A stretch of 64,000 nucleotides of DNA from positions 186,001 through 250,000 of the forward strand of contig NZ_JASGLW010000001.1 of assembly GCF_030156785.1 (NCBI RefSeq), in the 5' to 3' direction. Each line of letters begins with the position of its first letter. The first letter of the stretch is position 1. This document shows, in pieces, positions 1 through 28,042 of the stretch. This DNA is from Methanohalophilus sp. GTDB lineage: Archaea; Halobacteriota; Methanosarcinia; Methanosarcinales; Methanosarcinaceae. A program made the translations under genes and the position numbers. The notes below the pieces were generated by a model, which ran no database searches, was not told the origin of the DNA, and saw only the letters and a list, made by a program, of their open reading frames with translations.

Positions 1-368
1 TAGAAGTTGCCCGAAAGCTTCAGGAAGCAGGATTGAATCTCATGGGTACCAAAGCCACTGCCAAATATCTTGCAGATAAGGGTGTTGTTATGGAAGCAGT
101 ACAAAAGGTACATGAAGGTAGTCCAAACGTTATTGACATGTTGCGCCGTGGGGATGTGGCTTTGATTATCAACACCCCGACATCTAGGCAATCACGCAGG
201 GATGGATATTACATTCGTCGTTCAGCAGTGGATTATCAAGTGCCCTACATAACCACGATCCAGGCTGCAAAAGCGGCGGTTGAAGCAATCACTTCAATGA
301 AGAGTAGTGATAGGATAACTATAAAATCCATCAATGAGTACCATAAAGAAGTACTCCGGCAGGAATAA
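1..368 (+). CDS. carB: Carbamoyl-phosphate synthase large subunit, C-terminal end (partial)
   Basis: The gene enters from the left edge already open, and only the last roughly 120 codons are present. The visible part is the MGS-like allosteric domain that ends CarB, which makes carbamoyl phosphate from bicarbonate, ammonia or glutamine nitrogen, and ATP. Recognisable pieces are [15 protein letters not shown] near the start and LIINTPTS followed by a GYYIRRSA segment. It ends with TAA 47 bases before argG on the same strand. Carbamoyl phosphate feeds arginine and pyrimidine synthesis, so the pairing with argG is sensible. The catalytic ATP-grasp domains lie outside the window. Confidence 0.93.
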
Positions 369-13705: not shown

Positions 13706-15313
13706 ATGAAAATCGGAGTTGCAATTGATCTTGGAACAAGCGGATTTCGTGCCCAGAAAATCGATCTTGATTCTGGTGAAATTAAAAAAACTGTAATCAC
13801 TATGCGAAATCCTATACCTGGTGCCAATGTGATGGATCATCTGGATTTTGCTGTAACTTATGGCCAAGATCTTGCGCATGATCTTATGATCAATGCTTTC
13901 AAAAACATAATTGATAAACTTGAAGTTTCATCATCTTTAGAGCGCCTTGCTATCTGTGGAAATCCCATCCAATTATCTCTTTTCCAAGGTATTCCAATAG
14001 ATGATCTGGCATATGCCGGTCAGAGAAAGAAAGAAAAAGACAAGATTAAAGAACAGGAACGAAATGCAGTCATTATTAACGCAACCGATATTCATGGACT
14101 CGAAGATTTCAATAAATGCCGGGTTTTTATTCCCCCCGCAATTAAACATGAGGTCGGAGCTGATGCTCTTGCTCTTATCCTGAAATCCGGCATGCTTGAA
14201 AAAGATGAAATTGCCATTGCTACTGATTACGGAACAAATGCTGAGATGGCATTGAAGGTTAATAACGTTATATATACAGGTTCTGCGGCGGCGGGCCCTG
14301 CTCTTGAAGGACAGGAGATAAGTAATGGAACTATTGCCAGACCATTTGCAATTTCGGATGTTTCGTTTAATCAAAGTGGGTTACAAAACTTCGTTTTAAA
14401 TGAAGATATGGATACAATTCCCGGAGATATTGTAGATCCTGAAACGGGAACTGTGATTAATGAGGGTCAGATTGATGCCCGTGGAATTACTGGAACTGGT
14501 GTTATTGCTTTAATTGATGAATCCATCAAAAATGGATTGATAGTTCTTCCTCAAATTACTACCAAGGATAAATTGATTCATTTACAGGATGGTCTTACCT
14601 TTACTGAAAAAGATCTGAAAGAAGCAGGAAGGGCTATTGGTGCATTGCGTGCCGGGCATATTGCTCTGTGTAATGCCGCAGGTATTGGAATGGATGAAAT
14701 CGAAACCGTTTATATGTCCGGTGCTGCGGGAACTTACATGGATGCAGCAAAGGCGCATTCAATTGGTATGGTTCCGTATAGTGCCCAAAAAGTGTGCCAG
14801 ATAGGTAATACTTCACTTGCAATGGCTCGCGAAATCCTTCTATCGGAAGAAAGGTTGTGGGAATTACAATCTATTGCCAGGGAAATTGTCGGTACACATG
14901 TAATGTTTGCAACAGATAGTGCATTTAAAGATGCTTATATCCTCGAATTGTCCTACTGGGGAGAGGGGATGCCTTTTAAGGCCCTGAAAAAATACCTAAA
15001 AAAGAAGGGCCTACCAACAATTGATATTTCCAGTTCTAAACCAGTAATTGAAAAATGGGTGGAAAAAGACATTCCAGTTCTGGGTGAAGAAGGATTGCAT
15101 GTTCTTGATAAAGTTGGCACCTATCTGCAAATGGAAATCGAACATTGCACATCGTGCCATGAATGCATGAAAGTTTGCCCAAATGAAGCATTATCGGTTG
15201 AAGATAAAACTGTCAGGATACGTACGGATCTGTGTGATGGTGCACATTGCCAGAAATGTATGCATGCTTGCCCACAGGATCTTTTGGACTGGAATTTGCT
15301 CCAGGTGGTCTAA
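13706..15313 (+). CDS. RamA-like corrinoid protein reductive activase
   Basis: A 535-residue protein of the RamA/RACo type, which uses ATP and a low-potential iron-sulfur centre to return oxidised Co(II) corrinoid proteins to active Co(I). The N-terminal part is an ASKHA-type ATPase (GVAIDLGTSGFRAQK at residues 3-17; ATDYGTNAEMAL; YMSGAAGTYMD). The last 60 residues hold two [4Fe-4S] motifs: CTSCHECMKVCP and CDGAHCQKCMHACP. It lies between mtaA and the mtaCB pairs, so MtaC is the likely client, whereas classical RamA serves the methylamine systems. The stop is two bases from the next start. Confidence 0.88.
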   Translation: MKIGVAIDLGTSGFRAQKIDLDSGEIKKTVITMRNPIPGANVMDHLDFAVTYGQDLAHDLMINAFKNIIDKLEVSSSLERLAICGNPIQLSLFQGIPIDDLAYAGQRKKEKDKIKEQERNAVIINATDIHGLEDFNKCRVFIPPAIKHEVGADALALILKSGMLEKDEIAIATDYGTNAEMALKVNNVIYTGSAAAGPALEGQEISNGTIARPFAISDVSFNQSGLQNFVLNEDMDTIPGDIVDPETGTVINEGQIDARGITGTGVIALIDESIKNGLIVLPQITTKDKLIHLQDGLTFTEKDLKEAGRAIGALRAGHIALCNAAGIGMDEIETVYMSGAAGTYMDAAKAHSIGMVPYSAQKVCQIGNTSLAMAREILLSEERLWELQSIAREIVGTHVMFATDSAFKDAYILELSYWGEGMPFKALKKYLKKKGLPTIDISSSKPVIEKWVEKDIPVLGEEGLHVLDKVGTYLQMEIEHCTSCHECMKVCPNEALSVEDKTVRIRTDLCDGAHCQKCMHACPQDLLDWNLLQVV

Positions 15314-15314
15314 T

Positions 15315-16415
15315 ATGAAAAATATGAAAGTTCTTGTAATTGGTGGTTTTCTTGGAAGCGGGAAAACTTCAACTATCCTCAGGGTAAGTGAGTTTCTTGG
15401 AAAGAAAGGTGTAAAGGTTGCAATAATTGTTAATGAGATTGGGGAAGTGGGTATTGATGGTGACGTAATATCAAGCTATGGTTTTGATAGTATTGAACTC
15501 ACAAGCGGATGTATTTGCTGCACCTTAAAGCGAGATCTACGCTACACCATCAATGCTATAATAAAAGACTACAACCCTGATTTTTTGTTAATAGAACCTA
15601 CAGGAATTGCTTTTCCTGCAGTAATCAGGGATGAAATAATGCTGATGAATCTGGGCAATGTTGACTTTGCTCCTCTAGTAACATTGATCGATGGCAGCAG
15701 GTTCAAGGATCAGATGAAAGAAATAAAACAGTTTTCAGAGAGGCAAATAATTGACGCGGAAATTCTTGCCATAAATAAAGTAGATATTGTTGAAGATCTA
15801 TATGTTTCCATTATAGAATCTTCACTAAAGGAGATGAACCCAAAGGCGAGAATAGTGCGCTATTCTGCAAAATCTGATTCAATTCCTTTTTCAAATTTTA
15901 TGGATCTTTTACTTGAAAATAACGTCAATTCAGGAAAGAATACTCCAAAAGTTTTGGAGCAGCCAAAAGAAATCAATTCAATCACTGCATCGGGCATGGC
16001 GACCTATGCTGCAGAGTTTATTTTGATAAGAGGTAGTCTCAATACAAAAGATGCAGAGGACATTTCCTGCATACTCCTCAAAAAACTAAGGGAAAAAATT
16101 GCTGCATTAAATCCATCATTTATCGGCCATGTAAAATCGGTACTGAAAACAAACACAGCTACAATAAAGGCAAGTACCACTGCTTACTATGAAGAACCAC
16201 AAGTAGAAAGTTTTGAAAGCTTCAATTCGTCAATGTCTGTGAAAATTCTTGCAGCGGTATCCAACATTGCCAGTAAGGAGCTTATTGACTCCATTGATTT
16301 CTGTGTTCAGGAAGTATTTACACAAAATGACGTTCCCATAGTAAAGAATGTTGTTCAGAAAAGTCACAAGCATAAAAACTCTGTTGAGATTATAAATATA
16401 TGTAACGATATTTGA
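15315..16415 (+). CDS. COG0523-family (CobW/YjiA-like) GTPase, putative metallochaperone
   Basis: A 366-residue G3E-family GTPase. The P-loop GGFLGSGKTS lies at about residues 10-19, the metal-binding C-x-C-C is seen in GCICCTLKRDL, and the guanine-specificity sequence is INKVD. Such proteins bind zinc or cobalt and deliver metal to target enzymes or serve cobalamin synthesis. It starts one base after the activator stop region (TAATATG), so the two are coexpressed. In this setting it may supply zinc to MtaA/MtaB or act on the corrinoid of MtaC. That role is inference from context only. An in-frame ATG three codons later is possible. Confidence 0.85.
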   Translation: MKNMKVLVIGGFLGSGKTSTILRVSEFLGKKGVKVAIIVNEIGEVGIDGDVISSYGFDSIELTSGCICCTLKRDLRYTINAIIKDYNPDFLLIEPTGIAFPAVIRDEIMLMNLGNVDFAPLVTLIDGSRFKDQMKEIKQFSERQIIDAEILAINKVDIVEDLYVSIIESSLKEMNPKARIVRYSAKSDSIPFSNFMDLLLENNVNSGKNTPKVLEQPKEINSITASGMATYAAEFILIRGSLNTKDAEDISCILLKKLREKIAALNPSFIGHVKSVLKTNTATIKASTTAYYEEPQVESFESFNSSMSVKILAAVSNIASKELIDSIDFCVQEVFTQNDVPIVKNVVQKSHKHKNSVEIINICNDI

Positions 16416-16416
16416 G

Positions 16417-16487
16417 TTGCTCACATCTAAATACCAAACCACTTGTAGATTGGAGTAAGGAAGGAAGTGATACTTAGATGTGAGCAA
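16417..16487 (+). repeat. 14-bp inverted repeat enclosing a copy of the mta leader motif
   Basis: Perfect inverted arms TTGCTCACATCTAA (16417-16430) and TTAGATGTGAGCAA (16474-16487) flank 43 bases. Inside are ACTTGTAGATTGGAG (16441-16455) and TAAGGAAGGAAGTG (16456-16469). The first matches the mtaA and mtaC1 leaders in 14 of 15 positions. The second is identical to the mtaC1 ribosome-site region at 22190-22203. No start codon follows directly. It begins right behind the COG0523 stop. It could be a folded regulatory RNA, a terminator, or a relic of an mtaC leader. Confidence 0.65.
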
Positions 16488-16587
16488 ATATTATCATTAA
16501 TTGCGAACATATATAAGTTTGTAACTTCAAAACGGCATTTTAAATTAAATACCGCTTTTGATTACAAATTTATTACCGGACTTAAGT

Positions 16588-19452
16588 ATGGGAAATACAA
16601 CTATGATCAAAAAAGGCGGTGATGGAGGTGAAAATGCTCTTGTAAGCCGCTTTGTTACAGAAGATAATAGCAATCACATAGCATCGACTGCAGAAGATCT
16701 GGTGTCAATTTTTTCAGAATGTTTAGAAGATTGCATTCTTGTTGTCAAGGATTGCCGAATAGCATTTGCAAACAAGAAATTTTCTGAAATTGTAGGAAAA
16801 GAGATACAGGATATTTTAGGGACTTCTTTTTTGGATTATTTTGCTGTCGAATATCGCAGAATGGTTAAAAAAAAATACGATCAGCGAATCAAGAAAAATA
16901 CAAAGGTAACAATATCCTATGATGTGGAAATTGTGGGAACTAATGGTTCCTTATATCCTTTTGATCTTTCTACATCACTGGTTACGCTTTCTGGTGAACC
17001 AGCTGTTTTGATAACTCTGCGTGAAATAACCCAACGTAAAATTGTGGAAGAAAATTTTAAAGAAACAGAAAAAAAGTTTCGTGCAATTTTTGAAAGCAAT
17101 CCTGTGGGAATAGTTTACTTCAACAAAGAAGGTTTAATTGAAGATGCAAATGAAGCATTTAGGGAAATATTTGATTTCTGGGAAAATAAATCCACTCTTA
17201 ATAACAATATTCTTGATTTGGTAGCTGATGATACATTAAAGAAGTTTGTTCTGGAAATAATGAAGGGCAAATCATTATCGTGTCATGGCGAGTATCAATT
17301 TGAAGCTAATCAAAGAATTAAATCAATCAAATTGTTGTGCAAAGCTTTTCTTTTAGACGGTAATCTTCAGGGTGGAATAGGAATTTTTGAGGATGTAACG
17401 CTTCAAAAAACAGCTGAAAAAAGTTATCGTTACAATAAGAAGCGTCTAAAATTACTTTTAGAATTAAGCCAGATGAATTACGTGAATTTTGATGATATTG
17501 TCAGGATTGCATTGGTAAAAGCAGTTGATTTTACATCAAACAAATCGGGTTTCTTTTATTTTCTTGAAAAACCAGAGGGAATAAAAGAAGAAGTATATTC
17601 ATTTTCGCTGACCGGAAAGAAAAAAAGTAAAGAAAAGATCATTAATTATACGCAATCACTTTTTTCAACCACTACCGAAAATCAACTGAAAGAAAATAGA
17701 ATTTTAATTCCTATTTACGAGAATGAAAAACCTGTTTTTGTTGCAGGTTTTGATAAAGACCTAATATATGATGACATGGAAACACGACATCTCAATCTAT
17801 TGGTACATGATATATGGTCAATTTTCCAGCATAAATTATCCGAGCAGGCATTAAAAGCTTCAGAGAAAAAATACTCTACTCTTGTTGAAAAGGGAAATGA
17901 TGGGATTATAATAATCCAAGATGGAGCTCTACGATTTGCAAACTCAGTATTTACTGAGCTTGTCGGGGAGAAAAGTGATGAATTGTTGGGTACTGAATTA
18001 TCCTCTTTTGTTTCTGAAGAATACAGAAGAATGGTTCACAAAAAATTCAGCAAAATCCCTGATAATCCGGATCTTTTCCAGAAAAAACATGAGATTGAGC
18101 TTGTATCAAAAGACGGGAAACTTATTCCTGTAGAAGTGAGTTCCTCAGTTATTGTTCATGAAAATAAACCTGCAATAATGGCTATTATAAGGGACATTAC
18201 TGAACAAAAGGAAAAAGAAAAAACTCTGATTGAAACTCTTGATGCCCTTAAATTAATGCAATCGGTTATACGCACAAGCCCTGCAATTGTTTTCTTCTGG
18301 AGTCCAAAAGAAAATTGGCCGGTGGAATTTGTTTCATCGAATATTGAAAATTTTGGTTACAAACCGGATGAATTCATTTCGGGAAAACTTCGGTACGGAG
18401 ATATAATTCATCCTTCAGATCTGGAAATGGTTCAAAGAAGAGTTGAGGATTATTCCAAGAAAAAAGCATCTTCTTATGATCTTGAATACCGAATAATTAC
18501 TAAATCCGGAGAAATCCGCTGGGTAGAAGAAAGAGCGTCAATTCAATATGACAGCATGGGTCGATTAAGTCACTATCAGGGCTTAATTCTGGATATTACA
18601 GAAAGGAAAAGGATCAACAGTTTCCTGAATATCGAAACAGATATGGGACAATATTTTACTCCTGCGGGGGATATCCATGACGTTTTTGTTCATCTTCTTG
18701 ATATAGCATTACACATAGAAGGAATTGATTGCGGTGCACTTTATGTTGTAGATAAAACATCAGGCAACCTTAATATTGTTGCACACAAAAACCTTTCAAA
18801 TATATTTGTAGAAAAGTTCCAAGGTCTTGATAGTGAATCACTTGCCGGTAGATTCTTAACAGTTGATTATCCAGTATATATGCTCTTTCCTGAAATATAT
18901 CCTTTATCTCGTGACAAAGACATTCCAGATAAGCTTCTTGCAAGTGCTATTTTACCCATAAGGGTCAGGAATAAATTAACAGCAGTCTTGTTTGTTTCTT
19001 CCCATCAAAATTATGAGATAAGCATTCCTATTAGGGAATCACTGGAAAATGTTGCAGATCAGATTGAAGCAACAATGGAAAGAATTGGAAAAGAGGCTGA
19101 TCTAAGCAAAAAGCAATACGATTTACAGATTCTTTTTGATACTATAGACGAACTAATTTTCGTGATTGATACTGAAGGTTGCATTGTTTATAGTAACCAA
19201 ATGGCGTCAGAAGTACTTGGTTTTGCAAAAGAAGAACTCACTGGCATGAGTTTTATTAAACTTCAGCCGCATAATCAGGTTCTTGAGGCAGCTAAGGCCT
19301 TCAACACCGCTTTGCAAGGCTCAGATGTCAAGACAATTTTTAATTTATCTGATAAGAATGGAACGTTGATAAAGCTGGAATCTTCTCTTAAACTTGGAGA
19401 ATGGAACCACAAAAAAGCAATCATAATAGTAAGTCGAAAGGTAGGGATATAA
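16588..19452 (+). CDS. Multi-domain PAS/GAF sensor protein without a kinase domain
   Basis: About 954 residues from ATG 16588; a TTG at 16558 or an ATG at 16603 are alternatives. A TATA box (ATATATAAG, about 16510-16518) lies just upstream. Five PAS domains and two GAF-like regions are arranged PAS, PAS, GAF, PAS, PAS, GAF, PAS. PAS 1 and 3 share EYRRMV; PAS 4 ends in LILDITERKR. The protein ends inside or just after the fifth PAS domain; no histidine phosphoacceptor or HATPase region is present and no membrane helix is seen. It is a soluble sensor that must signal through a partner. It sits 61 bases before mtaC2, so sensing of methylated substrates or redox state is plausible. The ligand is unknown. 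Confidence 0.8.
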   Translation: MGNTTMIKKGGDGGENALVSRFVTEDNSNHIASTAEDLVSIFSECLEDCILVVKDCRIAFANKKFSEIVGKEIQDILGTSFLDYFAVEYRRMVKKKYDQRIKKNTKVTISYDVEIVGTNGSLYPFDLSTSLVTLSGEPAVLITLREITQRKIVEENFKETEKKFRAIFESNPVGIVYFNKEGLIEDANEAFREIFDFWENKSTLNNNILDLVADDTLKKFVLEIMKGKSLSCHGEYQFEANQRIKSIKLLCKAFLLDGNLQGGIGIFEDVTLQKTAEKSYRYNKKRLKLLLELSQMNYVNFDDIVRIALVKAVDFTSNKSGFFYFLEKPEGIKEEVYSFSLTGKKKSKEKIINYTQSLFSTTTENQLKENRILIPIYENEKPVFVAGFDKDLIYDDMETRHLNLLVHDIWSIFQHKLSEQALKASEKKYSTLVEKGNDGIIIIQDGALRFANSVFTELVGEKSDELLGTELSSFVSEEYRRMVHKKFSKIPDNPDLFQKKHEIELVSKDGKLIPVEVSSSVIVHENKPAIMAIIRDITEQKEKEKTLIETLDALKLMQSVIRTSPAIVFFWSPKENWPVEFVSSNIENFGYKPDEFISGKLRYGDIIHPSDLEMVQRRVEDYSKKKASSYDLEYRIITKSGEIRWVEERASIQYDSMGRLSHYQGLILDITERKRINSFLNIETDMGQYFTPAGDIHDVFVHLLDIALHIEGIDCGALYVVDKTSGNLNIVAHKNLSNIFVEKFQGLDSESLAGRFLTVDYPVYMLFPEIYPLSRDKDIPDKLLASAILPIRVRNKLTAVLFVSSHQNYEISIPIRESLENVADQIEATMERIGKEADLSKKQYDLQILFDTIDELIFVIDTEGCIVYSNQMASEVLGFAKEELTGMSFIKLQPHNQVLEAAKAFNTALQGSDVKTIFNLSDKNGTLIKLESSLKLGEWNHKKAIIIVSRKVGI

Positions 19453-19513
19453 TTCAATAGAAAATATATTGTGACATATTACAAAGTAGTGGTTATTTGG
19501 GAGGTTCATAATT

Positions 19514-20278
19514 TTGCTAGAAGTTAATCCGGATTTACTTATTACTCGTTATAATGTACTTGCAGAAGAAGAGATGACTCCAGAAGAAGTTGCTGAGCAA
19601 TTATATCCGGCTGATCCTAATTTAAGATCAATTGCAAGAGCCGTTTTTAATGGAGATGAGGACGATGTTGTAGCAAATATTAAAGATGCAATTGATCAGG
19701 GAAAAGATCCTATCTCCCTTATCAACGATGCCTTGATGGAAGGAATGTCAGTTGTTTCAACATTGTATGATGATGGAATGCTCTATTTACCTGATGTTAT
19801 TATATCAGCCCAAGCTATGATAGAAGGTATTGAATACTGCAAAGAACATTCCACAAAAGCACACGAATCAAAAGCAAAAATCATATCTTACGTAGTTGAA
19901 GGAGACATACACGACATCGGAAAACAGATTGTAACTGTACTTTTACGCGCAAATGGATACGAAGTTATTGATCTGGGTAAAGATGTGCCTGTGTAGGAGG
20001 TCATAGCTGCTACAAAGCGCGAAAAACCTATTATGCTTTCAGGAACTGCACTTATGACAACTACAATGCATGCTTTCAAAGAAGTGAATTCAAAACTACT
20101 TGAAAGTGATATTGATGTTCCGGTGGTTTGTGGAGGCGGAGCGGTTACCCAGGATTTTGTATCCCAGTACGAACTTGGTGTTTATTGTGAAGAAGCAGAA
20201 GACGTCCCCAAAATAGCAGATTCCATTCTCAAGGGTATGGATGTTAAGAAATTAAGAAGTACATTTCACAAACACTAA
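19514..20278 (+). CDS. mtaC2: Methanol corrinoid protein MtaC paralogue with in-frame TAG at codon 161
   Basis: Read through the amber codon at 19994-19996 this is a 254-residue MtaC, two residues shorter than the intact mtaC1 product. It accepts the methyl group from MtaB on its corrinoid. The cobalamin ligand motif EGDIHDIGK precedes the TAG, and the rest of the Rossmann domain (MLSGTALMTTTMHAF, CGGGAVTQDFV) follows in the same frame. The TAG replaces an Asp of mtaC1 in D-V-P-V-x-E-V. There is no other damage, and no start codon with ribosome site follows for reinitiation. The start is TTG after GGGAGG. Pyrrolysine insertion is the likely reading; a nonsense pseudogene is the alternative. 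Confidence 0.8.
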
Positions 20279-20289
20279 CCTGAGGCAAT

Positions 20290-21678
20290 ATGATGGGAAT
20301 TGGAAAATATAACACAATGGCATACAAAGATGCAGATGATCTTCTTTTCGGAGAATCTCTATACCCTGTCAAAACCGGATTGGATCTGGAAATTGGCGCC
20401 GGATACACTACAGCTGAAATTAATTATGCACCTAGACCACAGTCTGGTGAAAGCAAAGAATCCTTGATTGATGAATATGAAAGGATTACAAGAGATATTA
20501 TGCAGAGGATGGTTCAGGTTGGCTTTCAGTCAGTTGTACTTGAAACCGAACATGTTCACCAGATGACAAAAAATCCATCATGGGGCGCTGAAATTGCTGA
20601 GGCGCAGAAATCCATTTTGGAAGATTATCATGATAAATATGGAATAAAATGTGCACTCAGGCACACAATCGCAGATCTCAGAATTGACAGCCATGGTGTG
20701 GATCTACGGGGAGATTCTTATGATTTATTAATGGAATCATTTGAAGAAGTTTCATCTTCTGGTGCGGATATGGTTGCAATTGAATCTCTTGGAGGCAAAG
20801 AAGTATTCGATCATTCCATTTTGCGAAACGATATAAGCGGTTTATTATTTTCAATAGGGGTGCTTGGTACACTTGATGTTGGGTATATCTGGAAAGACAT
20901 TTGCAAAATATCAAAGAAGCATAATGTGATCCCCACAGGAGATACCGCCTGTTCCCAGGCAAATACAGCGATGTTTATTGCAGGGGGTATGCTTGATATG
21001 AAGCTCTCACATACAGTTGCAGCCATTGTGCGCGGAATGTCGGCAGCCAGATCTCTGGCAGCTTATGAGGCTGGAGCTATGGGTCCTGGAAAAGATTGTG
21101 GTTACGAGAATACTATAATCAAAGCGATTACCGGAACACCCATTTCTCAGGAAGGGAAGGGATCTACTTGTGCACATTCTGATTTTATGGGCAATCTTAC
21201 CATGCAATGCTGTGACCTGTGGTCCAATGAATCGGTTGAATACCACGGAGATTTTGGCGGTACAACTGTGCAGTGTTGGGGCGAGACACTTGCATATGAC
21301 TGTTCTATGATGAATACTGCACTTGTAGCAGGTTATGGGAAAATGCTACGCGATATCCTAATGGCATCCGATAGATATCGTGATCCTCAGTCATTTATTT
21401 TAGCCTATGATAATGCATATCGTATTGGAGAAACGATTGTCAACCATGCGAGTGATATTTACCTGCGTACCATGGATGCTGCCTTAGTGTGCTGTGATTT
21501 GATAGAAGATGCATCAAAGGGCTTACTTCACCTTTCTAAATTTGAGAAAGCCACTTTAAAGAAAACCAAAGCAGATTTACACTCACTAAGCATGGAAACA
21601 GATTTATTTATCGATAAATGTTTGAGTACCTATAGCAAAGAAGTAAGTTCTTTTAATCCTTCCAATTACGATCTGTAA
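20290..21678 (+). CDS. mtaB2: Methanol:corrinoid methyltransferase MtaB paralogue
   Basis: A 462-residue zinc enzyme that activates methanol and transfers its methyl to MtaC. It is similar to mtaB1 along its whole length. The regions that hold the zinc ligands in MtaB are intact: AIESLGGKE (Glu), GDTACSQANTAMF (Cys) and GPGKDCGYENTI (Cys). It starts 11 bases after mtaC2, with TGAGG before two adjacent ATG codons. Intact catalytic residues argue that the mtaC2-mtaB2 pair is still used and therefore that the TAG in mtaC2 is read through. The C-terminus FNPSNYDL parallels mtaB1 FRPENYDL. Confidence 0.93.
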   Translation: MMGIGKYNTMAYKDADDLLFGESLYPVKTGLDLEIGAGYTTAEINYAPRPQSGESKESLIDEYERITRDIMQRMVQVGFQSVVLETEHVHQMTKNPSWGAEIAEAQKSILEDYHDKYGIKCALRHTIADLRIDSHGVDLRGDSYDLLMESFEEVSSSGADMVAIESLGGKEVFDHSILRNDISGLLFSIGVLGTLDVGYIWKDICKISKKHNVIPTGDTACSQANTAMFIAGGMLDMKLSHTVAAIVRGMSAARSLAAYEAGAMGPGKDCGYENTIIKAITGTPISQEGKGSTCAHSDFMGNLTMQCCDLWSNESVEYHGDFGGTTVQCWGETLAYDCSMMNTALVAGYGKMLRDILMASDRYRDPQSFILAYDNAYRIGETIVNHASDIYLRTMDAALVCCDLIEDASKGLLHLSKFEKATLKKTKADLHSLSMETDLFIDKCLSTYSKEVSSFNPSNYDL

Positions 21679-22207: not shown

Positions 22208-22978
22208 ATGACCAGTTTAGAAATAGAACCAAACACTATTCTGGTACGGTACAACGTCGAAAAAGAAAAATCAATGAGTCCTGCTGAAGCAGCTGAAGAG
22301 CTGTATCCAAAGGATGAATTGATTCGCCCAATTGCAGAAGCAATTTTTGAAGGCGAAGAAGACGATGTTGTAGACGGTCTCCAGAAAGCAATTGATGCCG
22401 GAAAAGATCCTATTGCATTAATTGACGATGCATTGATGGTAGGCATGGGTGTAGTCTCCAAACTTTACGATGAAGGTGTAATTTTCCTGCCAAATGTAAT
22501 GATGTCTGCGGATGCAATGCTTGAGGGTATCGAATTCTGTAAATCCAAGTCATCTACCGCCCCTGTTGCAAAAGGCAAAGTTGTGTGCCATGTTGCAGAA
22601 GGAGATGTGCATGATATTGGAAAGTCCATTGTTGTAGCTCTCCTGAGGGCCAACGGTTTTGATGTTGTCGATCTCGGTCGTGACGTACCTGTTGATGAAG
22701 TTGTTGAAGCTGTAAAAGCCGAAAAACCAATGATGTTAACTGGTACTGCATTGATGACCACCACAATGTTTGCATTCAAGGCGGTAAACGACAGGCTCCT
22801 CGAAGCTGGAATAAAAATTCCATTCCAGTGTGGTGGAGGTGCTGTGAACCAGGACTTTGTATCTCAGTATGAACTCGGAGTCTATGGTGAAGAAGCAGCT
22901 GATGCACCAAAGATGGCACAGGCAATCCTTGAGGGTAAGGATCTTGATGCACTGAAGAAGCAGTTCCATACACACTAA
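22208..22978 (+). CDS. mtaC1: Methanol corrinoid protein
   Basis: A 256-residue corrinoid protein. The N-terminal helical domain (PAEAAEELYPKDELIRP; LIDDALMVGMGVV) is followed by the B12-binding Rossmann domain with the axial histidine motif EGDVHDIGKSI and the later GTALMTTTM and CGGGAVNQDFVSQYELG. It carries the methyl group between MtaB and MtaA. The codon at the position of the TAG in mtaC2 is GAT (Asp, residue 163). Codon use is richer in GC and more regular than in mtaC2, fitting high expression. A long structured leader precedes it. Confidence 0.96.
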   Translation: MTSLEIEPNTILVRYNVEKEKSMSPAEAAEELYPKDELIRPIAEAIFEGEEDDVVDGLQKAIDAGKDPIALIDDALMVGMGVVSKLYDEGVIFLPNVMMSADAMLEGIEFCKSKSSTAPVAKGKVVCHVAEGDVHDIGKSIVVALLRANGFDVVDLGRDVPVDEVVEAVKAEKPMMLTGTALMTTTMFAFKAVNDRLLEAGIKIPFQCGGGAVNQDFVSQYELGVYGEEAADAPKMAQAILEGKDLDALKKQFHTH

Positions 22979-22990
22979 GAGGTGATCAAA

Positions 22991-24373
22991 ATGGCAATAA
23001 ACAGATACACAAAGATGGCATATGCAAGTGCAGACGACATGATTTTTGGTAATGCAACTGCACCTGTAAAAGCGGGTCTTGGCTTAGAGATTGGTGGAGG
23101 TTACACCGTCCCTGAGGTGAATTATGCACCCAGGCCGGAAGCAGGTGCAACAAAGGAGAAGCTCGTGGAAGAATACGAGCGCATTACCCGGGACATTATG
23201 GCAAGAATGGTCCAGATAGGAGCTCCTGCAGTTGTCCTTGAAACCGAACATGTCCAGCAGATGACCAACAACCCCACATGGGGCGGTGAAGTTGCTGCAG
23301 CCCAGAAAGCAATCATGGAAGACTATCATGATGAATACGGTATCAAATGTGCACTCAGGCATACTCCAGGGGATATTCGTGAAGACCGTGACTACCTGCA
23401 GCTTCGCGGGGACAAATACGATGTCCTGATGGAATCATTTGAAGAAGTCGCTTCAAACGGTGCAGATCTTCTTTCCATTGAAACAATGGGCGGTAAAGAG
23501 GTCTCTGACTATGCAATCCTGAGGAATGATATTGCAGGTATGCTCTTTGCAATCGGCTACCTCGGAACTACTGACATGGATATGATCTGGCAGGATATTA
23601 CAAAGATTGCAAAGAAGAACAATGTCATATCAGCTGGTGATACTGATTGTTCCGAAGCAAACACTGCAATGTTTATTGCAGGCGGTCTTCTTGACAAGAA
23701 CCTGGCTCACACACTGGCAATTATTGCAAGAGCTATCTCCGCTGCAAGATCACTCGCCGCATATGAAGCCGGTGCAGTTGGTCCTGGTAAGGACTGTGGT
23801 TATGAAAACACAATTGTCAAGTCAATTGCAGGTGTTCCAATTGCACAGGAAGGTAAGACATCTACCTGTGCTCACTCTGACGTGATGGGTAACCTTGTAA
23901 TGCAGTGCTGTGACCTGTGGTCTAACGAATCAGTTGAATATCATGGTGAATTCGGCGGTACTACAGTCCAGTGTTGGAGCGAATCCCTCGCATATGACTG
24001 TGCCCTGATGAATGTTGCCCTTGAAACCGGCAATGCAAAGGTCCTCAGGGACATGATGGTCCTTTCTGATAAGTACAGGGATCCACAGGGATACATCCTT
24101 GCATACGACAATGCTTACAAGGTTGGTGAGGCAATTGTTAAGGATGCCAATGATATCTACCTGCGTGCAAAGAATGCAGCAGTTGAGTGCGTAAATCTGC
24201 TTACAAACGCAGATCCAAAGCTCCAGATGACCAGATTTGAGAAGAATGCTCTCAAGGATGCAAAGGAAGCTCTGGACGGACTCACAGATGATACTGACCA
24301 GTTTGTCAGTGATTGTCTTGAAACCTACAAGGCAGAAGTTAAAGTCTTCAGACCAGAAAACTACGATCTCTGA
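22991..24373 (+). CDS. mtaB1: Methanol:corrinoid methyltransferase
   Basis: A 460-residue MtaB. ATG 22991 was chosen over GTG 22982 because GAGGTG, the ribosome site, covers the earlier codon. Zinc-ligand regions are present as SIETMGGKE, GDTDCSEANTAMF and GPGKDCGYENTI. It begins 12 bases after mtaC1, so the two form one operon, and the products form the MtaBC complex in the cytoplasm. The frequent codons and perfect downstream terminator suggest this is the main, highly expressed methanol operon, while mtaC2B2 is accessory. Confidence 0.96.
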   Translation: MAINRYTKMAYASADDMIFGNATAPVKAGLGLEIGGGYTVPEVNYAPRPEAGATKEKLVEEYERITRDIMARMVQIGAPAVVLETEHVQQMTNNPTWGGEVAAAQKAIMEDYHDEYGIKCALRHTPGDIREDRDYLQLRGDKYDVLMESFEEVASNGADLLSIETMGGKEVSDYAILRNDIAGMLFAIGYLGTTDMDMIWQDITKIAKKNNVISAGDTDCSEANTAMFIAGGLLDKNLAHTLAIIARAISAARSLAAYEAGAVGPGKDCGYENTIVKSIAGVPIAQEGKTSTCAHSDVMGNLVMQCCDLWSNESVEYHGEFGGTTVQCWSESLAYDCALMNVALETGNAKVLRDMMVLSDKYRDPQGYILAYDNAYKVGEAIVKDANDIYLRAKNAAVECVNLLTNADPKLQMTRFEKNALKDAKEALDGLTDDTDQFVSDCLETYKAEVKVFRPENYDL

Positions 24374-25262: not shown

Positions 25263-26117
25263 ATGTACCGATTTCCTAAAACAACAAAAATCTTTTTTCC
25301 AATAACTGCTCTTTTGTTATCGTTATTTTTAATTGCAGTCGGATATTTCGTTCAAGTTCTTTATGTTGAAACAATTGGTTTCTATTGCTTTTTCTTTGTT
25401 ATTTCCATAATGATACTAGATTTTCAAAAATATTTAGCACTAAAAACTCCGGATAGTCATCACCCATATGGTTACACAAAATATGCCTCAATGATTCAAC
25501 TTCTCATTTCAATTGTTTTTCTGGGATTTGTTGTATTAACGATTTGGAAAACCTTGCTGGAGAAGACTATCAGTGATTCATATGTTTTTATTCAAAGTCA
25601 TATACAAGTATTGATAGGAATTATTCTGATCCTTAATATATTATTAATTCAAAAAATCCAAAATAAATCTGATATGAATGTTTTTTCAAGAAAAAGCACA
25701 TTGATGATTTTATCCCCATTTTTTATGATTCTTATTTTTCTTTTGATCCATGTTTATCCAAATCTTGATTTTATTTCATCATTGATTTTATTATTGGTTT
25801 TGCTTAAGATGTCGAGTGGTACAATTGTAAGAAGTATCGACGAGCTTTGTGACCATTGTTGCATACCTGAAAAACACATTAGTGAGCTTGTAAAGCAGGT
25901 AGAGGAAGTGAATGCAGTATACAACATAAGAACGTATGGAACCAAATATAGTATCTTTGTTGATCTTCAGGTTGCACTTGATCCTGATATGCAATTAATT
26001 GATGCAAAACCTGTTCTGACAAACATTAAAAAAATACTAATTCAAAACTATACATCAATTTCTGATGTTACAGTTCATATTAGACCTTATTTAAAAAATT
26101 CGGATGTGAGTATATGA
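25263..26117 (+). CDS. Cation-diffusion-facilitator-like protein lacking the usual metal ligands
   Basis: A 284-residue protein with about five or six hydrophobic helices and a C-terminal cytoplasmic domain of about 85 residues (VNAVYNIRTYGTKYSIFVDL) of the CDF type. The loop SHHPYGYTKY after helix 2 is the characteristic CDF signature. However, the expected H-x-x-x-D or D-x-x-x-D metal pairs are absent: the helix-2 region reads GFYCFFFVISIMILD and helix 5 reads RKSTLMILSPFFM. It may have another cargo or a structural role. ATG 25263 follows AAGGG. Its stop overlaps the next ATG (ATGA), so it is coupled to the hydantoinase-like gene. Confidence 0.7.
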   Translation: MYRFPKTTKIFFPITALLLSLFLIAVGYFVQVLYVETIGFYCFFFVISIMILDFQKYLALKTPDSHHPYGYTKYASMIQLLISIVFLGFVVLTIWKTLLEKTISDSYVFIQSHIQVLIGIILILNILLIQKIQNKSDMNVFSRKSTLMILSPFFMILIFLLIHVYPNLDFISSLILLLVLLKMSSGTIVRSIDELCDHCCIPEKHISELVKQVEEVNAVYNIRTYGTKYSIFVDLQVALDPDMQLIDAKPVLTNIKKILIQNYTSISDVTVHIRPYLKNSDVSI

Positions 26118-28042
26118 AATATGGCCTTGGGATAGACGCCGGTGGAACATATACTGATGCGGTAATTGTTGATCTGGAAAGTGGAAAAGTAATTGACTCA
26201 AACAAGCAATTAACAACATACCCCAACATACTGACGGGTATAGAAAAATCAATTGACGGCATTCTCCCCTCATTTCTTGAAGAAATTGCAGTTATTTCCG
26301 TATCCACCACACTTGCTACAAATACGGTTCTTGAAGGCACCGGATATCCCGTTGCATTAATCCTTATAGGTGAACACGGTACGTAGGAAAAAGAGTATCC
26401 TTCAAAGTATATTAAATGTATATCCGGTGGTCATGATCAGGACGGAGTTGAACTTGAGCCACTTGACGAGAAAAGTGTGGCAGAGTTCATAGATTCAGTT
26501 AGAGATAAAGTATCCTCATTTGCGATCTCTTCCTACTTCAGTATCCGAAATCCGGATCATGAATTAAGGGCAAAAGAAATAATCCTTGAGAAAATTAAAG
26601 ATGTACCGGTTGTTTGTGGTCATGAATTATCTCAGGATATCGGTGCCTATGAAAGGGCTGTAACCGCATCACTTAATGCCCAGCTGATTCCGATTATTAC
26701 GCAGTTTATCCATAGTATCGTTGCAGATTTTAAAAGACGTGGAATAGCTGCACCAATTCTAATGCTAAAGTGTGATGGTTCTGTAACCAGTATTGAAGAT
26801 GCATTAAAAAAACCCATTGAGACGATATTTTCCGGACCTGCTGCAAGCCTTATAGGTGCATCACACCTCAGTAAAATGGATACATGCGTCACAATTGATG
26901 TAGGTGGTACAAGTACTGATGTGTCTGCTATGTTTAACGGCATTCCAGCCCTCAGCGATTCAGGAGGTATAATAGGAGGATGGAAAACTCGTGTACGCTC
27001 AATCAATATGGAAACTTCTGCAATAGGTGGTGATAGCCACATCTGGATTAAAAATCGGCATTTTTTCATAGGTCCTAGAAGGGTCATGCCATTGTGTGTA
27101 GCTGCAGAAAAGTATCCCCAAATTCTTCTTAAGCTAAAAAATCTAGCAATTCCACCGAGAGCAGATTTTGACAATAACATACAACCTGCTACATTTTTCA
27201 TAAGAAATGGAAAAAGTGCTTCAGGAATCAATGAAGAAGAAAAACGACTTCTCAAATTGTTAGGGGATGACCCTATTTCATATGTTGATTTAACCTCGCT
27301 ATGCGGTAAATATGTTTCTTCCCGCACATTGAATGGTTTATTCCAAAAGCGCCTAATACAAGGCATAGGATTTACTCCCACGGACGTTCTTCATGTGCTT
27401 GGCGATTATACTCAATGGAATGCATCGGCTTCATCATTGGGGGCAGAGCATCTTGCAAAATTATTATTCAGATCAAAAGTTGAGTTCTGTCAGACACTCA
27501 AAACAGAATTTGCACAAAACATGGTATTTAACCTGATTAAATATCTCCTTCCTGGGTATGATGAAGTAGGTATTGAAAAGATATTGCGTGGAAAAGTTGA
27601 TGTTGGCTTTAAGGTAAAACTTCCAGTTGTACTAATAGGAGGACCTGTAGCCCCTTATGTACAGGAAATAAGCAATATCATTGATGCAAACATTGTTCTC
27701 CCCGAACATTCAGAAGTTGGAAACGCAGTTGGTGCACTTTTCGGAAAAGGAATTAAAAGAGTTGAATTTCTTATCAAACCGGTTTCACTGGAGGATCCCG
27801 ATGCTGGCATTATAGTTTTTTCGCCCGAAAAGAGAGAAGTTTTCGAGAAATATGCCGATGCATATGAATATGCAATCAATATGGGTGAAAGCCTCATAAT
27901 CGAATATATGTACAAATGCGGCATAGGTAAAAACAACGTTAGTATTGATTCAAATGTGAAAAAAATTACATTTGAAGGTTGGAAAAACCCTCCAATGGAA
28001 ACCCGGATAACAATGATTGGTATAGGGAAAAAGTACGTTTGA
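26114..28042 (+). CDS. Hydantoinase/oxoprolinase-family protein with in-frame TAG at codon 91
   Basis: A single reading frame of 642 codons interrupted only by TAG at 26384-26386. Before it lies the Hydant_A N-terminal fold (GLGIDAGGTYTDAVIVD, TTLATNTVLEGTGYP). After it come SSYFSIRNPDHELRA, LKCDGSVTSIEDALKKPIET, FSGPAASLIGA and TIDVGGTSTDVSAM, the actin-like ATPase core. Family members hydrolyse hydantoins or oxoproline with ATP, but partner B subunits are absent. In this location it might act on methylated compounds or act as a corrinoid activator; both are speculation. The TAG-free remainder is undamaged, so amber readthrough, probably as pyrrolysine, is likely. The start overlaps the CDF-like stop. 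Confidence 0.75.

Follow-up and report, generated by a model that had tools for sequence, protein, structure and literature searches.

The stretch of DNA analyzed here, 64,000 nucleotides from Methanohalophilus sp. (assembly GCF_030156785.1, contig NZ_JASGLW010000001.1, positions 186,001 to 250,000 of the forward strand; hereafter the window), contains a gene for the corrinoid protein of methanol metabolism, mtaC2, whose reading frame is interrupted by an amber codon, TAG. The question that this locus raises is whether that codon ends the protein, regulates its synthesis, or is simply read as an amino acid. We consider it very probable that the TAG is a sense codon and that the product is a full-length, near-neutral pyrrolysine-containing MtaC2, in which the pyrrolysine would play no part in catalysis and need no special recoding signal. 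The two features in question are:

19514 to 20278, + strand: mtaC2, methanol corrinoid protein, with an internal TAG and a TTG start (NF040655, Pfam).
19994 to 19996, + strand: the in-frame TAG, codon 161, at which 6/6 congeneric orthologues have GAA (translation, orthologue codons).

The amber codon in mtaC2 is real and exceeds what chance would give, with strong coding potential on both sides and a continuous domain. A preliminary description of this DNA had presented the TAG as the only lesion of a full-length MtaC frame, and so we found it: no other internal stop occurs between the TTG at 19514, from which the codons are counted, and the terminal TAA, and the translation with the TAG read through scores 436.9 bits over residues 3–254 of 254, the cut-off of the NF040655 MtaC profile being 420. 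The position assigned to the codon, after the cobalamin His motif and before the rest of the Rossmann domain, likewise held: the motif EGDIHDIGK has its His at residue 133—aligned, by hand count, with residue 136 of the M. barkeri MtaC 2i2x_B—and the Pfam B12-binding match extends over residues 122–231, with codon 161 inside. Both the whole-length NF040655 score and the combination of the His motif with a paired MtaB place the product among the MtaC proteins. In the predicted MtaC2 model, which has a mean predicted local distance difference test score (pLDDT) of 89.7 and whose strands and helices run on as far as residue 251, residue 161 (aligned with residue 164 of 2i2x_B; hand count on the alignment) lies in the first turn of the helix 160–170. 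According to that model a stop at 160 would strip the protein from that helix onward, which loss amounts to the second half of the Rossmann fold, in keeping with the half of the B12 fold that termination had been expected to cost.

The main yield of the analysis is the evidence for TAG as a sense codon across this Methanohalophilus genome, more than the single gene. In a sample of 972,982 bases—63% of the assembly, the window included—TAG terminates 27 of 858 open reading frames (ORFs) of at least 100 amino acids and 11 of 615 of at least 200, and in 10 of those 27 the TAG is really inside a Pfam domain and is not an end. A screen for stops with strong in-frame coding potential on both sides gave 47 candidates (17 TAA, 16 TGA, and 14 TAG), with 32 of the 33 TAA/TGA candidates being tested and the remaining one crossing a stretch boundary. 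A Pfam domain over the gathering cut-off continued across the stop in 12/14 TAG candidates versus 0/32 TAA/TGA candidates (Fisher exact p 2.3e-9); and when MtmB and MttB were left aside, such a domain was still found in 10 of 12. Most of the TAA/TGA candidates have different families on each side of the stop, as do neighbouring genes that share a frame; three of the 32 (L081, L067:3045, and L080) gave no Pfam match, and one sub-threshold match, RE_endonuc in L090, crosses a TGA. With the best stretch per family being the only one taken, three of the four CBS stretches of L088 went unseen among these controls. By the codon use of this genome, TAG would be expected in only 32–36% of one-step nonsense changes, and TAA plus TGA in 64–68%.

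Because TAG is rare as a terminator, and because TAG but not TAA or TGA interrupts conserved domains, the best reading of TAG throughout this genome is that of a sense codon, and the matter is not one of a single gene; the residue that it decodes is presumably pyrrolysine. The codon in mtaC2, which had been viewed as an isolated lesion, proves to be one of many, another one being located within the window itself. According to a report said to date from 2025, some archaea read all their TAG codons as pyrrolysine.

Scanning 20 TAG-interrupted frames, those from the list of TAG-ending ORFs included, we found a domain across the TAG in 15, of which 13 are not methylamine methyltransferases; for the sampled part the number of such genes is thus at least 15, since the screen misses short or weakly coding pieces. 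As assigned by Pfam, with some of the names being our reading of the matches, these frames encode MtaC2, a hydantoinase/oxoprolinase-like protein (window 26114–28042), a CYTH protein, an HtrA-like protease, and a SLOG protein; an Elp3-like protein, a ModE-like regulator, a class I aminotransferase, and a geranylgeranyl-reductase-like flavoprotein with two TAGs; a class I amidotransferase, a RimI-like acetyltransferase, a CCA-adding enzyme, and an FkbM-type methyltransferase; and, finally, MtmB and MttB, the known pyrrolysine enzymes. The frames that we rejected as lacking a spanning domain were a CbiO-like one in which the TAG lies past the domain (L094:597), a 104-amino-acid frame of L082 and L057:12499 (no match in either), a DUF167 frame (L094:6942), and pylB, whose TAG is its normal end. 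The second gene of this kind in the window is:

26114 to 28042, + strand: hydantoinase/oxoprolinase-like gene with an internal TAG at 26384–26386, codon 91 of 642 (Pfam, coding potential).

At that codon all six syntenic congener genes have GAA, and two more distant copies have CCC and CTG; at the TAG of the aminotransferase, 7/7 relatives' genes have TAC or TAT. In a 400-kb sample of the congener G002, TAG ends 5 of 339 ORFs and lies inside a glycosyltransferase-like frame, an integrase-like frame, and mtmB—names read from the translations alone—with eight TAA/TGA candidates being found there.

Certain peculiarities of these frames may be recorded separately. In the geranylgeranyl-reductase-like flavoprotein (L070:15927–17129, – strand) the two in-frame TAGs are codons 182 and 225, and the paper on the methanogen ISO4-H5 also lists two amber-containing geranylgeranyl reductase genes (PMC5011839). 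The HtrA-like frame (L061:867–2186, – strand) acquires a second TAG when extended upstream, possibly beyond the true gene. Four TAG-ending ORFs (L071:8204–9763; G000:C17:39689–41344; L061:13021–13725; and G000:C6:69783–70688) have a TAA or TGA 2–7 codons further on, as if a second stop might back up a leaky TAG.

The machinery for decoding is at hand. Within the source assembly (1.55 Mb in 19 contigs, genus Methanohalophilus) the pyl genes on which a pyrrolysine would depend—pylT, pylS, pylB, pylC, and pylD—are all present: a tRNA-Pyl with the anticodon CTA is located shortly before pylS, after which come pylB, pylC, pylD, and an mtbA-type methyltransferase gene. The products PylB, PylC (first 212 residues scanned), and PylD score above the NCBIfam cut-offs, which result places this organism among the pyrrolysine decoders. 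The pylB gene (L050:18311–19363) itself ends in TAG, with the ATG of pylC one base later, such a TAG end having been noted in several methanogens (Rother and Krzycki 2010, PMC2933860). Moreover, pyrrolysine was detected by mass spectrometry in the MttB of a congener, M. portucalensis (PMC4928046).

The course of events that we propose would be as follows. This Methanohalophilus would make pyrrolysine and tRNA-Pyl (CTA), with TAG being a rare amino-acid codon genome-wide. The conversion of one Glu codon, GAG, into TAG by a G-to-T change, where a helix of the B12 domain begins and in one copy of a duplicated mtaC, would then have replaced Glu161 by pyrrolysine rather than truncating the protein, and that change would have been tolerated. 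The full-length MtaC2 with pyrrolysine 161 would bind cobalamin via His133 and work with MtaB2, the pyrrolysine having neither a catalytic role nor a special recoding signal. What the data show are the frame, the pyl genes, the scarcity of TAG as a stop, the interruption of conserved domains by TAG specifically, the sense codons of the relatives, and a rate of change past the TAG that is not clearly raised; that the inserted residue is pyrrolysine, that MtaC2 is made and active, and that the change is neutral, we infer.

The relatives indicate what the codon was before. In the mtaC2 orthologues codon 161 is GAA in 6/6 congeners and in 3/3 genomes of genus g3, GAG in G013, and AGC in G020, the mtaC1 of the window having GAT; and within the mtaC2 set Glu162 and Val163 are invariant while residue 161 is variable. 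An amber codon conserved in the mtaC genes of the family was sought and not found among the matches listed (111 genomes searched, 94 with a match), in which the window copy alone has an internal stop; in a further mtaC search the one row with an internal stop among the 55 above the cut-off was again the window copy (hand count), and among the matches listed in a third, which did not extend to the window copy, there was none. For a catalytic residue one would look for a TAG conserved family-wide at the active site, and the orthologues have GAA, GAG, or AGC; what we observe—a TAG in a single genome, at a site that varies and where one base change would restore Glu, in a protein otherwise constrained—is the pattern of a neutral pyrrolysine substitution like that of Thg1, perhaps with a weak excess of rate. 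The simplest history is one transversion from GAG to TAG, in which GAG would be the direct ancestor. These comparisons point to a recent, near-neutral Glu-to-TAG change at 161 and not to a conserved regulatory or catalytic pyrrolysine. In the congener closest by one aminotransferase (G005, 92% identity), MtaC went unmatched both at E 1e-100 and at 1e-75, and the methanol genes may be absent from that genome.

The state of the gene beyond the TAG and that of its neighbours bear on whether mtaC2 is in use. The features concerned are:

19499 to 19505, + strand: GGGAGGT, a putative ribosome-binding site as read from the sequence, 8 bases upstream of the TTG start.
20290 to 21678, + strand: mtaB2, intact methanol:corrinoid methyltransferase partner (profile match, alignment to 2i2x_A).
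22208 to 22978, + strand: mtaC1, intact paralogue, with GAT at the codon equivalent to 161 (profile match).
22982 to 24373, + strand: mtaB1, intact (profile match).

MtaB2 reaches 758.7 bits (cut-off 720), and in the alignment it retains Glu164, Cys220, and Cys269 of the M. barkeri MtaB 2i2x_A, which we take to be the zinc ligands; the zinc-ligand regions attributed to it are accordingly all there. The mtaC1 gene begins 0.5 kb past the end of mtaB2, and the mtaC1/mtaB1 pair is intact. A restart of translation after the TAG was considered and rejected: the sequence TAGGAGGT at 19994 does resemble a ribosome-binding site, but the first ATG in frame after it, at 20033, is too distant.

The amino-acid identity of mtaC2 to the six congeners is 83–85% after the TAG versus 73–76% before, with the corresponding values in three between-genus mtaC pairs being 77–84% after that position and 76–78% before. 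In a part long untranslated, decay would be expected, and the frame after the TAG does not show it. A relative-rate comparison of the same part with L045 as the outgroup was level, the unique changes numbering 5–6 in the window versus 4–5 in the congener (p up to 1). Pairwise ratios of nonsynonymous to synonymous substitution were not used, with third positions differing at about half of all codons.

Several points weigh against a translated and tolerated MtaC2. The intact mtaC1/mtaB1 makes a loss of mtaC2 affordable, and if a redundant copy had acquired its nonsense mutation very recently, its divergence would look no different. With L047 as the outgroup, the relative rates after the TAG lean to the window (6–7 vs. 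2–3, p 0.18–0.51); before the TAG the window-to-congener counts are 18:7, 18:7, and 17:10 with L045 (p 0.043, 0.043, and 0.248) and 14:8, 14:8, and 17:10 with L047, the latter not significant; and mtaC1 leans similarly to the window with L045 (24–25 vs. 11–13, p 0.041–0.073). A weak, gene-wide excess of rate in the window lineage is therefore possible, though not one consistently stronger after the TAG. In the genome survey, the TAG frames were scanned whole, and the scan of the TAA/TGA controls reached no further than 130 codons from the stop. The assembly, furthermore, is fragmented and 94.6% complete. Finally, one release factor of M. acetivorans recognises all three stop codons (PMC2933860), on account of which some truncation at the mtaC2 TAG is likely.

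The idea of a regulated readthrough, by which full-length MtaC2 would be tied to the pyrrolysine supply and the second methanol system thereby coupled to methylamine metabolism, had been raised in the preliminary description. That full-length MtaC2 would require Pyl-tRNA, that the genes pylTSBCD are followed by one for an mtbA-type methyltransferase, and that the intact mtaC1/mtaB1 would stay as an uncoupled system all accord with it. Nevertheless, the TAG is present in none of the orthologues read, the congeners having Glu, nor in the other family matches listed; TAG occurs also in many unrelated genes, for example those of the aminotransferase, the class I amidotransferase, and the CCA-adding enzyme; and the 100 bases after the TAG that we folded in search of a structure like the pyrrolysine insertion sequence (PYLIS) gave nothing notable (z 0.52, with 130 of 200 shuffles folding at least as well). 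In the mtaC of G148, a genome considered below, the TAG is at a different codon. The tie to methylamine status has thus gained no positive support, and we regard such regulation as quite improbable. If it were true, one of two tandem methanol systems would be on only during active methylamine metabolism, and two unrelated archaeal orders would have reached the arrangement of one amber and one amber-free tandem mtaC at different codons.

Just as improbable, in our judgment, is a pseudogene, in which the TAG would truncate a redundant mtaC2 with the loss of half of the B12 domain. The second, intact mtaCB at 22208–24373, the sense codons in the orthologues, the removal by truncation at 160 of everything from the helix 160–170 on, and the lean of the amino-acid changes to the window lineage with some outgroups would all suit that explanation. 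Against these considerations stand the absence of any other lesion in mtaC2, the integrity of MtaB2, and the part after the TAG being as conserved as between genera; and ordinary pseudogenes would not yield a pattern in which TAG but not TAA/TGA interrupts domains in the sampled genome. The orthologue comparison that had been proposed as a check therefore turned out both ways: the relatives do have sense codons and the TAG is not conserved, but relaxed selection on mtaC2 was not shown by either the identity or the relative-rate comparisons.

An assembly or sequencing error at the TAG base, to which a fragmented assembly and the dependence of everything on one base lend some color, we judge highly improbable: TAA and TGA make up 64–68% of one-step nonsense changes, and still none of the 32 candidates with those codons interrupts a domain above the cut-off. 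As for amber suppression without pyrrolysine—through near-cognate readthrough or another amino acid—the inserted residue is not readable from DNA, but the genome encodes PylS and, in tRNA-Pyl(CTA), a dedicated tRNA, and with Pyl measured in the MttB of M. portucalensis the chance of that explanation is negligible.

With pyrrolysine as the best reading of the codon, the preliminary interpretation is partly supported. Under standard annotation, mtaC2 and other TAG genes of this genome would pass for pseudogenes or truncated genes, and the scoring of methanol metabolism would go wrong; the contrast between TAG and TAA/TGA in domain span offers a simple test for a sense TAG in this Methanohalophilus, which test yields a list of testable Pyl proteins.

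Directly 5' of mtaC2B2 (window 13706–19452) are genes for a RamA-like activase, a CobW-like GTPase, and a multi-PAS sensor protein, the first of which is:

13706 to 15313, + strand: RamA-like corrinoid reductive activase, upstream of mtaC2 (TIGR04270, 808.6 bits, cut-off 500).

Compared with known systems, the nearest likeness is found in ISO4-H5, of the Methanomassiliicoccales, in which Li et al. (2016, PMC5011839) listed 46 genes with an in-frame amber codon, mtaC AR505_0952 among them, and predicted that MtaC1 contained pyrrolysine. That organism, as described there, resembles ours in having an in-frame amber in mtaC along with a full pyl set; the earlier statement that no pyrrolysine had been described in a methanol corrinoid protein is thereby superseded, such a residue in MtaC having been predicted already. 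In our own search of mtaC in the family of G134 (102 genomes, 73 with a match), one row had a TAG, that of G148, which genome we take to be ISO4-H5: there the TAG falls at match residue 67, within one member of a tandem mtaC pair, the sister copy having Glu (GAG). Five other rows had TGA or TAA, and in L220, the one of those five that was examined, the TGA comes close to the end, at residue 251 of 256. Unlike the TAG of the window, that of G148 is not at a B12-domain position and belongs to a different order of archaea, and the two are probably of independent origin; to judge from the sequences, mtaC would have gained TAG at least twice, at unrelated sites. The two hits, which occupy different positions and both spare the cobalamin His motif, argue for tolerance and not for a function of pyrrolysine in MtaC. 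That each of two orders has a tandem mtaC pair with TAG in a single copy offers an attractive natural comparison with which to ask about the neutrality of pyrrolysines that take no part in catalysis.

Within the same genus, an amber codon has been reported in the citrate synthase of M. mahii, for which its authors suggest pyrrolysine (PMC3017947); we found one TAG in that gene in G007, taken as M. mahii; the genes of G002 and G005 had no TAG, and the remaining five of the eight genomes of the genus, that of the window included, gave no match. The case is like mtaC2 in being an amber in a non-methylamine enzyme, and unlike it in that the protein is a different one, needed, by its authors' account, for 2-oxoglutarate synthesis (PMC3017947). 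The Thg1 of M. acetivorans has a species-specific, dispensable pyrrolysine (Rother and Krzycki 2010, PMC2933860), and the Thg1 paper of Heinemann et al. (2009, cited via PMC2933860) has neutral evolution in its title; unlike MtaC2, Thg1 is a tRNA-modifying enzyme and was experimentally tested. For Ca. Methanomethylophilus alvus, Borrel et al. (2014, PMC4153887) took the rarity of TAG stops (1.6%) to suggest constitutive expression of the Pyl genes, under which condition new in-frame ambers become stable. The genome of the window fits that picture. Ca. M. alvus is of a different order, and the word MtaC does not figure in the main text of that article. MtmB, MtbB, and MttB, finally, share with mtaC2 the same codon and the same decoding machinery, MtmB and MttB occurring with their TAG in this same genome; but whereas in those enzymes the TAG is conserved and, according to the literature, catalytic, that of mtaC2 occupies a variable site and was seen in a single genome.
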